Below, piece after piece: positions 7,116-43,943 of a stretch of DNA of 64,000 nt. Both the position numbers and the translations under genes were made by a program. Position 1 is the stretch's first letter. The number at the start of each line of letters is the position of its first letter. The notes below the pieces were generated by a model that saw nothing but the letters and a program-made list of their open reading frames with translations, ran no database searches and was not told the origin of the DNA. Source of the stretch: Spongiibacter nanhainus (GTDB taxonomy: Bacteria > Pseudomonadota > Gammaproteobacteria > Pseudomonadales > Spongiibacteraceae); the NCBI RefSeq assembly GCF_016132545.1, contig NZ_CP066167.1, positions 1,887,001-1,951,000 on the forward strand. Direction: 5' to 3'.

Positions 7116-10456
<3,341 letters not shown>

Positions 10457-40082: not shown

Positions 40083-40574
40083 TTAATTATTATTACCGAG
40101 CGCGTGACGCTGTATGAGAAAAGTGAGCAGACCGTCGACGGCGCTCTCCAACTCGGAGATCATGCGTTGAAATTGTGAGGCATCGCCATAGTAGGGATCA
40201 TCCAGCTGAGCCTGCTTGGCGGCGCCGGCAAACTCCATCAACAGCCGAATTTCAGCTGCACTTTGGTCAGTAGCCCAGCACTCGACCTGCATCAGATTTT
40301 TGCGATCCATCGCCAGTAGATAGTGCGCTTGCTGATAGTCGCTGTCGTCGATTTGCCGGGCCACCTCTGCTGACAGGTCGTAGCCTGCCGCGGCGGCAGC
40401 CTGTGTCGCCCTGGGGTCGGCGGGCTTGCCAACATTGAAGGCGGCGGTGCCGCAGGCATCGCTGGTGAGCTGATCGCTTAGGCCGGCCGCGGCTACCCGC
40501 TGATCAAAAATCACCCGCGCTGCCGGGGAGCGGCAGATATTGCCCAGGCACACAAACACAACGTGGATGGCCAT
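40083..40574 (-). CDS. Low-molecular-weight protein-tyrosine phosphatase
   Basis: 163-residue phosphatase. Seen: the P-loop CLGNICRS at residues 9-16 (nucleophile Cys9, Arg15) and the general-acid Asp in LDDPYYGD. In bacteria such enzymes often act on exopolysaccharide tyrosine kinases, but neither a kinase nor a capsule cluster is here, so the substrate is open. It is transcribed with, or just before, the LLM gene. Confidence 0.92.
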   Translation of the reverse strand: MAIHVVFVCLGNICRSPAARVIFDQRVAAAGLSDQLTSDACGTAAFNVGKPADPRATQAAAAAGYDLSAEVARQIDDSDYQQAHYLLAMDRKNLMQVECWATDQSAAEIRLLMEFAGAAKQAQLDDPYYGDASQFQRMISELESAVDGLLTFLIQRHALGNNN

Positions 40575-40672: not shown

Positions 40673-41803
40673 TCAGCGGGCTTTGCTGCTGAGGAGAACC
40701 ACGAATTTGCGGTCCGATAGCACCACCTCAGCCCCACCGAAGAGTTTTTTAAGGGTGAGGTGATAACCCAGATGGCGATTGCCAACCACGCACAATTTGC
40801 CACCGGGGCGAAGGTGACGCTTGGCATCCTTAAACATCTGCCGGGCGATATGATCACCGATTTGTTGTCCCTGGTGAAAAGGCGGGTTGCAGAGCACCAA
40901 GTCGAAACTCGGGCCGTTGTACTGGCCCATGCAGTCGTCGCAGTGGAAGTGGTGATTGGCTGGGTGGGTCAGGTTTCGCTGGGCGTTGTCCCGGGCGCTG
41001 TCGACGGCCAGAAATGACTCGTCAAAAAAGTGTACTTCAGTATCTGGCCAGTGTTTGGCCGCCATAATACCCAACAGGCCGTTGCCGCAGCCAAGGTCGG
41101 CAATGCAGCTGGCATGGGGCAGTTGGGTAAGGGCTTGAAGCATAAGCCGACTGCCCCGGTCCAGTTTGTCGCGGCTAAAAACATTGGCACGGTTGCGCAG
41201 GGTCAAACCGTATTCTGCGGCGTCCAGAAAGTGGCTGTCGTCCTGTTGATGCCGGCTATCTGAGAGGGCCGAGAGTTCCAGTAGGCGGGATTTTTTCCAG
41301 GCCAGTGAAGGCTGACATGGCCCGATATTTTGCTCAAATACCTTCAGCAATGCGATATCGATGTACTTGGCCATCGCCGCCGCAACGAACTGCGTCGGGG
41401 ATGAAATCAGATTGCCAATGGCTTGCAGTTGGTAGCTTAGCAGAGAATGGCTTCGGGGCGGGCGCAACAGCACCAAGTCAAAGGGGCCCTCAGGAAGGTC
41501 TGTGGCAGGCAGACAATGGGGAGAGGGGCGCTGATTTAATGCCGCATTTTCAGCCGCGGCCAAATGGCTTACCGCGGAGTCTGACCACAGGGTACATTGA
41601 AACTCCGACAGTGCCGTGGCGAGGGTGCCAAAGCTGTCGTTAACCAGCAGAATCCGCGCTGATGATGGCAGGTTGAGCTCTGCGACCCGTTTCAGTAGAT
41701 AGCGGTCGGCCGCATCCCAGGCTTGCAAAACCTCATTGCGACGACGGGGCCGGCGCTGTAATTGCAGCTTGCCAAAGGGGCAGTCCAGATAGTCGCTATT
41801 CAT
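40673..41803 (-). CDS. rlmG: 23S rRNA (guanine-1835-N2)-methyltransferase-like protein
   Basis: 376-residue two-domain methyltransferase: a degenerate N-terminal domain and a C-terminal catalytic domain with motif I ADLGCGNG (235-242) and NPPFH (306-310), typical of guanine-N2 methyltransferases of the RsmC/RlmG class. The overall length and CPFGKLQLQRRPRR start favour RlmG; RsmC is the alternative. The start ATG is the first element of a 16-bp tandem repeat array (41801-41912), and its ribosome site AAAGG lies inside the same repeat unit. Confidence 0.85.
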   Translation of the reverse strand: MNSDYLDCPFGKLQLQRRPRRRNEVLQAWDAADRYLLKRVAELNLPSSARILLVNDSFGTLATALSEFQCTLWSDSAVSHLAAAENAALNQRPSPHCLPATDLPEGPFDLVLLRPPRSHSLLSYQLQAIGNLISSPTQFVAAAMAKYIDIALLKVFEQNIGPCQPSLAWKKSRLLELSALSDSRHQQDDSHFLDAAEYGLTLRNRANVFSRDKLDRGSRLMLQALTQLPHASCIADLGCGNGLLGIMAAKHWPDTEVHFFDESFLAVDSARDNAQRNLTHPANHHFHCDDCMGQYNGPSFDLVLCNPPFHQGQQIGDHIARQMFKDAKRHLRPGGKLCVVGNRHLGYHLTLKKLFGGAEVVLSDRKFVVLLSSKAR

Positions 41804-41912
41804 AAGGGCCTTTGGTCATAAGGGCCTTTGGTCATGAGGGCGCCTGGTCATAAGGGCCTCTGATCGCGAGAGTCTCTGGTCATGACGGCTCTTGCTCATT
41901 ACGGCCGGGGGT
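41801..41912 (-). repeat. Seven tandem 16-bp repeats filling the rlmG leader
   Basis: Seven consecutive 16-base units run from the rlmG start codon to the stop codon of the upstream gene. Units 1 and 2 are identical (CATAAGGGCCTTTGGT, plus strand) and units 3-7 diverge progressively. On the coding (minus) strand each good unit reads ACCAAAGGCCCTTATG, that is a Shine-Dalgarno-like AAAGG, 5 bases, and ATG. The extra ATGs start short frames that end at TGA or TAG at or near the next ATG. This is a multiplied translation start module. Confidence 0.9.
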
Positions 41913-42811
41913 CAAGACAGTGCTTCGCTATTGTCCAACAGTAGCGTTTTCAGGCGCTGTCGTTCGCTATCACCAATGCCGAGACCCACTTGAAGGTAGC
42001 GATCGATATCACCGTAATCCTTTTCAATAGCGCCGTAAGCGGCGTTAAGAAACTCTGGCGATGCACGCAATAAACTGCCCAGTGCGGCGTCACTGTGCCG
42101 CCACTCGGGATGCTCCGTGAGGAGGCCCAGTATGCGGCGCACCCGAGCCTCTGTATAAGTGTTGGTCGCCAGGTAGTCCTGCATAATCACATCGTCATCT
42201 ACCCCCAGTGCATGCAGTACCAGTGCCGCCGCCAGGCCAGTGCGATCTTTTCCCGCAGAGCAGTGGAACACTTGGGGGTAGAAGTCCTCTTCCAAAAGCA
42301 GCTGCATCCACTGGCGGAAGGTAGGGGTAAATCGCTCGATCATTTCCCGGTTGGCGGCAATAAGGAAATCGGCCATTTCTTCAGCGCCGATGGAGGCCGC
42401 TGTAAGTCGGGCGGTCAATTTATCGAAGTTGGCGGCCTCCACGCTGACTGGCAGCAGGTGGATGGCAACGTCGGCATCGGGCCACAGCGAGTGGGGGTTA
42501 GATTGATATTCTTCCGGCGAGCGGAAGTCTACTATTCGGCGCAGATTCAGGCGTTTGAGGTATTTGATATCCTCGTCACTAAGGCCGGCAATCTTATCGG
42601 AGCGGTACAGTCGGCCCCAGCGCAATGGCCGTCCGTCAGCGGTGTAATAGCCCCCCAAATCCCGAAAGTTATGCATTTTTTCAAAGGGCAGTTTACGCCA
42701 CTGTTCCCGCTCTGGATGCTCGGTCAAATGGGGTAGGGGGCGTTCGTTTGCCGGTGCCAGTTCGGCGTCAGCTCGGGCGTCGAGCAAGCTTAGAAAGGGT
42801 TTAGCGTCCAT
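41912..42811 (-). CDS. Tyrosine phosphatase, dual-specificity-like (Y_phosphatase3 type)
   Basis: 299 residues from the ATG at 42811, which overlaps the AraC gene end by 11 bases and has AAAAGG upstream; a longer frame to 42895 would overlap that gene by 95 bases. Seen: HNFRDLGGYYTADGRPLRWGRLYRS, the hallmark start of this family, RIVDFRSPEEY, and the P-loop HCSAGKDRTG. Family members act on phosphotyrosine or phosphoinositides; substrate unknown. The N terminus is rich in MDAKPFLSLLD-type sequence without a signal peptide, so it should be cytosolic. Confidence 0.88.
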   Translation of the reverse strand: MDAKPFLSLLDARADAELAPANERPLPHLTEHPEREQWRKLPFEKMHNFRDLGGYYTADGRPLRWGRLYRSDKIAGLSDEDIKYLKRLNLRRIVDFRSPEEYQSNPHSLWPDADVAIHLLPVSVEAANFDKLTARLTAASIGAEEMADFLIAANREMIERFTPTFRQWMQLLLEEDFYPQVFHCSAGKDRTGLAAALVLHALGVDDDVIMQDYLATNTYTEARVRRILGLLTEHPEWRHSDAALGSLLRASPEFLNAAYGAIEKDYGDIDRYLQVGLGIGDSERQRLKTLLLDNSEALS

Positions 42812-43943
42812 CAAATTCTGACCTTTTATAATTGCCAGTCGCAGCGGGAGCCGCGCTATCGTGGGTGAGAGACTGGCGGCTTGTTCGGTATTCACCGGGC
42901 GTCATCCCGGTCCATTTTTTAAAAGAGCGATGAAAGGCGCTGGGTTCATCAAAACCCAATAGCGCCGAGATCGCATTGATCTTAAGCTCCGGCTGGTTCA
43001 ACCAGCGCATGGCGTGTTCCCGGCGCAATTCATCTTTGAACTGCTGGTAGGTGGTGCCGTGCTCCTTCAGCCGACGGCGAAGGGTTCGCACCGACATATG
43101 TAACCGATCCGCCATCGCCACCACGCTGGGAAACTCGTGGCTGAGATCATTGCCGACAATGCGTTTCATCTGGGATAGCAGGGTACTGTCGTCTTCATCT
43201 GGTGACACCAGCAAATGGTAGGGCGCGTCCCGCAAGAAACGCCGCAATGAATCCTCGGTCCGCACCAGCGGGCAGTCCAGCGTATAGCTGGGCATGAAGA
43301 AGGCATTGTATTCGGCGCCAAACACCAACTCGGTATCAAAAAGCTGATCGAAATAGGCGCGTTTTTCTGGCTCGGGAGCCTGTAAGTGCACAGAGCGCAA
43401 ATCCAGCGGTTTGCCTATCAGCCACTGGCAGAAGCGCCGCCAGATGGCCATGGTGTGGGCAGTGGTGTAGCGCTGCTGATTGACATCGCCACTGCCGGCC
43501 AGGTCGCCATCGTCGGGAAAACGAAAACGTGCACTGCCGTCCTCAAGTAATTGCACCGGATATTTTACGCCGCTGGGTGTGTCGGTGAGTGTGCGGCAAA
43601 AACTCATAAACTCCGCCGCCCGTTGCAGTGCCTGGCCCAGGGTTTCGCAGTGGATGATAAACAGGGCAAGCATGCGAAAACTCCCCGCCGGGGTGCGTTG
43701 GCGCAGGCCCAGACCAAAGGATTCGTCTTGCAGTAGCCACATTACCCGCCGATAAAGCCGGGTATAAAGTCTGGCATCAATCATGGCGTCGCGGTCGGCG
43801 TTTGCCGCCAGCGGATCTACCGGGAACTGCAGAGAGTGCAGCAATTCGGCAGGGTTGTAGCCCTGTGCGGTGACCACCTGCAGCATATTGCGGGCGTATT
43901 TCAGGGGCACTTGGCCGGGTTTGAGGTTGGCGGGTTTAGGCAA
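42801..43943 (-). CDS. AraC-family transcriptional regulator
   Basis: 380 residues with an N-terminal Arabinose_bd-type ligand domain (VPLKYARNMLQVVTAQGYNPAELL) and a C-terminal double helix-turn-helix (FPSVVAMADRLHMSVRTLRRRL and ISALLGFDEPSAFHRSFKKWTG). The start is a TTG at 43943 with a weak ribosome site; no ATG is closer to the family start, so the exact start is uncertain. It is likely cotranscribed with the phosphatase and rlmG. Its ligand and targets are unknown; the peptide ABC genes downstream-convergent in position are not obviously linked. Confidence 0.88.
   Translation of the reverse strand: MPKPANLKPGQVPLKYARNMLQVVTAQGYNPAELLHSLQFPVDPLAANADRDAMIDARLYTRLYRRVMWLLQDESFGLGLRQRTPAGSFRMLALFIIHCETLGQALQRAAEFMSFCRTLTDTPSGVKYPVQLLEDGSARFRFPDDGDLAGSGDVNQQRYTTAHTMAIWRRFCQWLIGKPLDLRSVHLQAPEPEKRAYFDQLFDTELVFGAEYNAFFMPSYTLDCPLVRTEDSLRRFLRDAPYHLLVSPDEDDSTLLSQMKRIVGNDLSHEFPSVVAMADRLHMSVRTLRRRLKEHGTTYQQFKDELRREHAMRWLNQPELKINAISALLGFDEPSAFHRSFKKWTGMTPGEYRTSRQSLTHDSAAPAATGNYKRSEFDGR

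Follow-up and report, generated by a model that had tools for sequence, protein, structure and literature searches.

On the minus strand of the window (the whole 64,000-nt stretch of DNA analysed), the entire gap between a tyrosine phosphatase gene and an rlmG-like gene was filled by seven 16-bp units (41915-41804). Such an arrangement raises the question of how an array came to lie between the two genes, and of whether ribosomes leaving the phosphatase can still be handed to rlmG across it.

Layout of the junction and its repeat units

The genes and units were arranged as follows.

42801..43943, minus strand: AraC-family regulator gene, upstream of the phosphatase (present in 13 of 17 congener loci)
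41912..42895, minus strand: tyrosine phosphatase gene (Y_phosphatase3), taken as the longest ORF, start codon provisional
41912..41914, minus strand: phosphatase stop TGA, inside the TTGA of U7 (-4 overlap with a TTG)
41804..41915, minus strand: seven-unit 16-bp array, U7 to U1, originally a stop-SD-start module
41915-41900, minus strand (5'->3'): U7, TTGACCCCCGGCCGTA
41899-41884, minus strand (5'->3'): U6, ATGAGCAAGAGCCGTC
41883-41868, minus strand (5'->3'): U5, ATGACCAGAGACTCTC
41867-41852, minus strand (5'->3'): U4, GCGATCAGAGGCCCTT
41851-41836, minus strand (5'->3'): U3, ATGACCAGGCGCCCTC
41835-41820 and 41819-41804, minus strand (5'->3'): U2 and U1, both ATGACCAAAGGCCCTT
40673..41803, minus strand: rlmG-like 23S rRNA methyltransferase gene, best NCBIfam match the RlmG model
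40083..40574, minus strand: low-molecular-weight phosphotyrosine phosphatase gene, downstream of rlmG (adjoining it in 13 of 17 congener loci)

The rlmG-like protein matched the RlmG model at E 8e-71 with 239 bits, under the model cutoff of 468, and its ATG (41803-41801) directly followed U1. Neighbour genes at congener loci were counted within flanks of 1.5 kb.

The array displayed a periodicity that shuffled sequences did not reach. Identity at lag 16 was 66/96 across the array, and the top periodicity score (lags 5-40) was 10.4, against 5.6 for the best of 2000 dinucleotide shuffles (0/2000 reached the array). The well-kept part was also recovered by TRF (41800-41859, score 92). Head-to-tail units of at least about 10 bp, repeated beyond chance, make the array a tandem repeat (minisatellite). 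A sequence-only reading of this DNA had described a 16-bp array filling the gap at 41801-41912, which is the same array in a different phase, with identical units near rlmG and decayed ones further away. Both points held, since substitutions relative to U1 numbered 0, 4, 4, 4, 5 and 6 of 16 going from U2 to U7, the latter being the weakest unit (10/16 agreement). The ATG was kept in five of the seven units (TTG in U7, GCG in U4), and the ATGA, in which the stop overlaps the start, was likewise retained by five, U4 having lost both ATG and TGA. The further claim that each intact unit recreates AAAGG-N5-ATG was true of two units and failed for the remaining ones.

The sequence of the proximal unit was found at a single genomic locus at ≤1 mismatch and at two places at 2 mismatches (six for the reversed control pattern). 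A dispersed element was ruled out for this unit sequence by the genome-wide single locus at ≤1 mismatch.

Congener junctions and the origin of the array

The search of relatives comprised 57 genomes including the source genome and covered 17 other species of the genus. The phosphatase gene was directly upstream of rlmG in all 17 congeners, at a spacing of -1 to +16 nt (17/17) when measured to the nearest plausible in-frame start, with start codons picked by the analyst, and the junction often read TGATG or TAATG. TRF (score ≥40) detected an array at none of the 17 congener junctions; two weak two-copy matches (L008, L021) were located inside congener rlmG, off the junction. The window gap of 108 nt equals exactly 12 + 6x16, the stop itself lying within the first unit (TTGA). 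Taken together, the tight junctions of the congeners and the size of this gap indicate that a tight stop-start junction was multiplied. The translation-start module seen as multiplied in the sequence-only reading is thus part of a larger unit, which includes the stop of the upstream gene and hence the whole junction. The rlmG start agreed with the N-termini of the congeners, and the alternative start further inside the gene that this reading had considered is therefore unlikely.

In congeners L006, L007 and L008 the in-frame candidate start of rlmG is a TTG, and TTG starts may serve here.

The array is almost certainly a tandemly amplified stop-start junction. A 16-bp segment spanning the phosphatase stop and the rlmG start was most likely amplified in tandem through replication slippage between two TGA tetramers, the TTGA of the stop and the ATGA of the start, which lie 16 nt apart. 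Slippage at such tetramers would duplicate exactly the stretch from stop to start, and could have carried an ancestral gap of about 12 nt to 108 nt. The identity of U1 and U2 and the growing decay of the units further out suggest that the youngest copies adjoin rlmG. The unit may possibly derive from the first codons of rlmG itself, whose first 16 nt agree with U5 at 12/16; 10 of the 1637 ATG sites in the window fit a unit equally well.

Micro-ORFs and the passage of ribosomes

The starts kept in the array open the following short frames.

41880..41915, minus strand: possible micro-ORF from the U7 TTG, 11 codons; TGA overlaps the U5 ATG (-4)
41816..41899, minus strand: micro-ORF from U6, 27 codons; TGA overlaps the U1 ATG (-4)
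41848..41883, minus strand: micro-ORF from U5, MTRDSRDQRPL (11 codons); TGA overlaps the U3 ATG (-4)
41816..41851, minus strand: micro-ORF from U3, MTRRPHDQRPL (11 codons); TGA overlaps the U1 ATG (-4)
41800..41835, minus strand: micro-ORF from U2, MTKGPYDQRPL (11 codons); TGA overlaps the rlmG ATG (-4)
41796..41819, minus strand: micro-ORF from U1, MTKGPYE (7 codons); TAG within rlmG (-8 overlap)

All five ATG micro-ORFs and the TTG one terminated on the start of a later unit or ≤8 nt from the rlmG start, as did the frames of the sequence-only reading, which had correctly placed a seven-codon frame ending at a TAG across rlmG codons 2-3 and two frames whose TGA overlaps an ATG; the latter are the 11-codon frames of U2 and U3. 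The micro-frames also link up through -4 overlaps, a feature beyond that reading, and form an unbroken overlap chain from the phosphatase stop to rlmG, into which they intrude by ≤8 nt. The chain exists because the unit contains ATGA, because 16 = 1 mod 3 and because most TGA copies survive; the U6 frame extends to 27 codons because U4 is without its TGA. The micro-ORF junctions, at -4 and -8, are of the overlapping or very close stop-start kind at which termination-reinitiation operates.

According to extracts of a study in E. coli, two gene pairs lost 80-90% of their reinitiation and a third lost all of it when the upstream stop was shifted to +38 nt, 40-80% of reinitiation was lost at +14 nt, and the overlaps seen most often across 1,695 species were -4, -1 and -8, of which -8 was less efficient than -4 (PMC10666635). 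As +38 nt nearly abolishes reinitiation, a bare gap of 108 nt should uncouple rlmG, whereas some coupling could persist along -4 and -8 overlaps in series. Given the loss at +14 nt, coupling may have been weak even across the presumed ancestral gap of about 12 nt.

The reading favoured here, with moderate confidence, is a junction minisatellite born by slippage in which a reinitiation relay is plausible, that is, an amplified junction with micro-ORFs able to pass ribosomes along. Ribosomes coming from the phosphatase, or loading within the array, would be passed to rlmG by termination-reinitiation, along a route from the TTG at 41915 to 41883, 41851 and 41819 by -4 overlaps and then by -8 into rlmG, or along a second one from 41835 to rlmG by -4. 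Expansion would then have been cheap and nearly neutral for rlmG, since ribosomes would still be handed on. As far as the letters tell, the chances that the relay is actually used are about even. Its first step depends on initiation at a TTG whose SD is nearly absent (-0.4 kcal/mol), the loss of ATG and TGA in U4 cuts the even chain, U7 is a weak unit, and four to five serial steps could deliver few ribosomes. Furthermore, ATGA units of this length produce a relay by default, and its presence is therefore no evidence of selection.

SD energies, computed with the standard anti-SD rather than one taken from the host genome, were -3.2 kcal/mol each for the rlmG and U1 starts, and -2.5, -2.1, -1.7 and -0.4 kcal/mol for U2, U5, U6 and the U7 TTG, respectively. 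The U3 start (41851) had the best value within the array (-5.8 kcal/mol), and would be the likeliest internal entry site. For reference, 390 long ORFs gave a median of -4.8 kcal/mol at their first ATG, against -2.6 at 1230 random sites. The SD columns were the most mutated of the unit (10 substitutions in 28 cells). Weak and variable SD letters therefore disfavour a selected ribosome-loading array, an idea raised by the sequence-only reading on the AAAGG that is present in U1 and U2 and stays weaker than the ORF median. Selection on the SD was likewise considered and not seen, the SD columns varying most. TGA columns were mutated in 1/21 cells vs 22/91 elsewhere (P=0.036 uncorrected, one of four column tests and lost after correction), and protection was not significant for ATGA columns (3/28 vs 20/84 mutated, P=0.11) or ATG columns (3/21 vs 20/91, P=0.33).

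A possible though less probable reading is that the array is a plain decaying minisatellite, in which slippage expanded the junction, ribosomes now start rlmG at its own ATG regardless of the array, and the micro-ORFs see little or no use. Its evidence on origin is identical to that for the amplified junction with a relay, and the progressive decay of distal units and the unprotected SD columns agree with it. The weak SD of rlmG itself sits poorly with an independent start, and ribosomes are unlikely to bypass completely five upstream ATGs whose frames finish on starts.

Capture of ribosomes by the out-of-frame starts, which as a decoy or attenuator would lower rlmG output in proportion to copy number, is unlikely. 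Five upstream ATGs with short frames exist and the SD at U3 is stronger than that of rlmG, but the frames end ≤8 nt from the rlmG start or on a unit start, the commonest reinitiation distances in the extracts of PMC10666635.

A slippage-prone switch of rlmG expression (phase variation), also proposed by the sequence-only reading, is very improbable. Slippage is still conceivable between U1 and U2, the adjacent identical pair, but identical units number only two and a low slippage rate is expected from so few; moreover, rRNA methyltransferase genes are not known as typical targets of phase variation. In phase variation copy number alters the frame or promoter of the gene, whereas the rlmG start lies outside the array; copy number has no power over the rlmG frame because its ATG is downstream of the array and the TGA in U1 closes the upstream frame. 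The length of the repeat upstream of fpg1 does correlate with mRNA level in M. tuberculosis, as stated in extracts of PMC2734929.

A DNA- or RNA-level element (operator array, terminator or structured leader) can practically be dismissed: direct repeats as such would suit it, but the RNA fold of the array region was unremarkable (z-score 0.56), no promoter (searched over 41600-42200) or terminator matched, the Rfam search of the array region gave no match, and the proximal unit has no second place in the genome at ≤1 mismatch.

Junction repeats in the literature and in other genomes

The nearest known systems are the mycobacterial MIRU repeats and junction VNTRs. MIRUs (Supply 1997, as cited in the parts consulted of PMC12548453 and PMC2734929) are gene-junction repeats with an internal ORF coupled to the downstream gene at -4 nt, and the U2 micro-ORF, overlapping rlmG by -4 in its ATGA, resembles a tolerated MIRU unit. 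Unlike the rlmG unit, MIRUs are described there as 40-100 bp long, scattered over 41 M. tuberculosis loci and thought to be mobile (PMC12548453, PMC2734929); at 16 bp the rlmG unit is outside this size range, is found at this locus only (proximal unit, ≤1 mismatch) and appears to be born from the local junction. The rnc-fpg1 region of the M. tuberculosis complex is also similar, with 279-358 bp mostly made of repeats reaching as far as the start codon of fpg1, and a shorter gap (1-54 bp) in other mycobacteria, but its units are larger, complex, strain-variable and linked to mRNA level (extracts of PMC2734929). The -4 and -8 overlaps recall termination-reinitiation at ATGA/TGATG gene overlaps (PMC10666635 and PMC6728339, in extract), from which serial micro-ORFs in a tandem array, rather than two genes, differ. 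The TAACTGA repeats of Beggiatoaceae are likewise short direct repeats just upstream of starts, but consist of a fixed heptamer without start codon, with 170 sets in one genome (PMC4679880, in extract).

No description of tandem 10-25-bp stop-SD-start arrays was found in the partly accessible literature searched, which mostly leaves out subscription literature and does not prove absence. The components (minisatellites, -4 coupling and MIRU-like coupled repeats) are known; a 16-bp unit that derives from its own junction and gives a serial relay was not found described in that literature and is apparently new.

Further arrays were sought by TRF in 864 kb of the source genome (the window and 40 sampled stretches), which gave 34 rows of period ≤60, including 18 rows (15 distinct arrays) outside genes. 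A second stop-SD-start array (L135 14473-14562; G000:C1, about 2,514,500) was found between a 361-aa ORF and a HupE/UreJ gene, with about four copies of a 21-bp unit, ATGAGCTATAGGGAAACAGCC, carrying ATGA plus AGGGA. The gene pair overlapped by -4 or -1 at all 15 congener loci that have it, none with a TRF array (G007 and G009, with distant HupE matches only, are omitted). The HupE units merely lengthen the N-terminus in frame because 21 = 0 mod 3, adding MSYRETA-type repeats if the first start is used, and form no relay.

Other arrays of this genome lie at gene ends without an evident start module, which favours the plain minisatellite. Between purF and metZ, five 16-bp copies (L153 17651-17727) repeat the last three purF codons and the stop, i.e. 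the stop side only, and the gap is 131 nt vs 9-59 nt in 17 congeners (starts picked by the analyst, ATG except GTG in one). The stop of the upstream gene is also included in 13-15-bp arrays at L125 11647-11689, L129 7129-7225 and L140 16553-16611. Non-coding arrays were placed over stop codons in 6/15 cases vs 2.99 expected (P=0.056), a count favoured by extending the window, L135 and L140 arrays by eye past the TRF ends, and were not enriched over start codons (3/15 vs 2.94 expected); by the gene set of that test, the array at L157 9328-9371, which is among the 15, fell within a gene. With no enrichment at starts and a weak one at stops, generic slippage in tight junctions explains the placement. 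The stretch holding the L129 array also contained a 107-bp unit in 4.8 copies (8671-9178, 93% matches) and several further arrays within its 20 kb.

Among relatives, a parallel to the amplified rlmG junction came from scanning 96 genomes for ATGA at period 16 and involved two sister species, one of them the congener G004. In G004, a 202-aa and a 111-aa ORF (no Pfam match) were separated by two additional identical GAGCCGGAGGTCAAAT units, while its sister G016 (upstream protein 83% identical) had a plain -4 ATGA junction; the difference (L249 2092-2139 vs L250 2092-2107) is exactly two 16-bp stop-SD-start units. TTGAG and ATGAG stand 16 nt apart in G004, one at either end of the unit, and the added units leave an 11-codon micro-ORF that bridges the junction with -4 at each end. 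Whether a terminated ribosome scans onward or restarts purely locally is disputed (PMC10666635, in extract), and a 108-nt gap paved with overlapping micro-ORFs, together with the two-unit difference of this pair, provides a natural test. These junctions also suggest a route by which compact operons could lengthen while keeping coupling.

Stop-SD-start arrays at gene junctions were also found in G081 (L238) and in G538, from another family of the class, where an 18-bp in-frame array of GGGGAGACAGCCATGAGC type (L261, about 1990-2115) precedes a protein that, judged from a motif, seems to begin like a NiFe-hydrogenase large subunit. Pattern scans were little above their reversed controls. ATGA at period 16 matched 29/96 relatives (control 22/96), RGG-N5-ATGA twice at period 16 matched 27/293 genomes (control 16) and GGAG-N6-ATGA twice 26/369 (control 10), as tallied by the analyst from tables; many matches are chance or other repeats, e.g., in G515/G613 and G200. 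Besides the window, L135, L227, L238 and L261 were judged by eye to be stop-SD-start junction arrays, among the sample from G000 and the inspected places (20/59, 3/36 and 6/36 rows of the three scans, respectively, picked by eye). Recurrence thus refers to individual cases chosen by eye and implies no prevalence. It is rather doubtful, though conceivable, that stop-start junctions multiplying in tandem make up a recurrent, self-buffering class of minisatellites, in which a serial relay would keep coupling at otherwise failing distances, and the parity of the unit number, together with unit length mod 3, would set ribosome yield.

At L259 (G581) a start module was repeated in frame with no stop nearby, and at L178 (G014) an array ran into a start. 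The latter genome also harbored near-perfect heptamer arrays, GACGCTG x38 (L177 8112-8379, beginning at an ORF end) and CGTCTAG x28 (L179 16920-17118).
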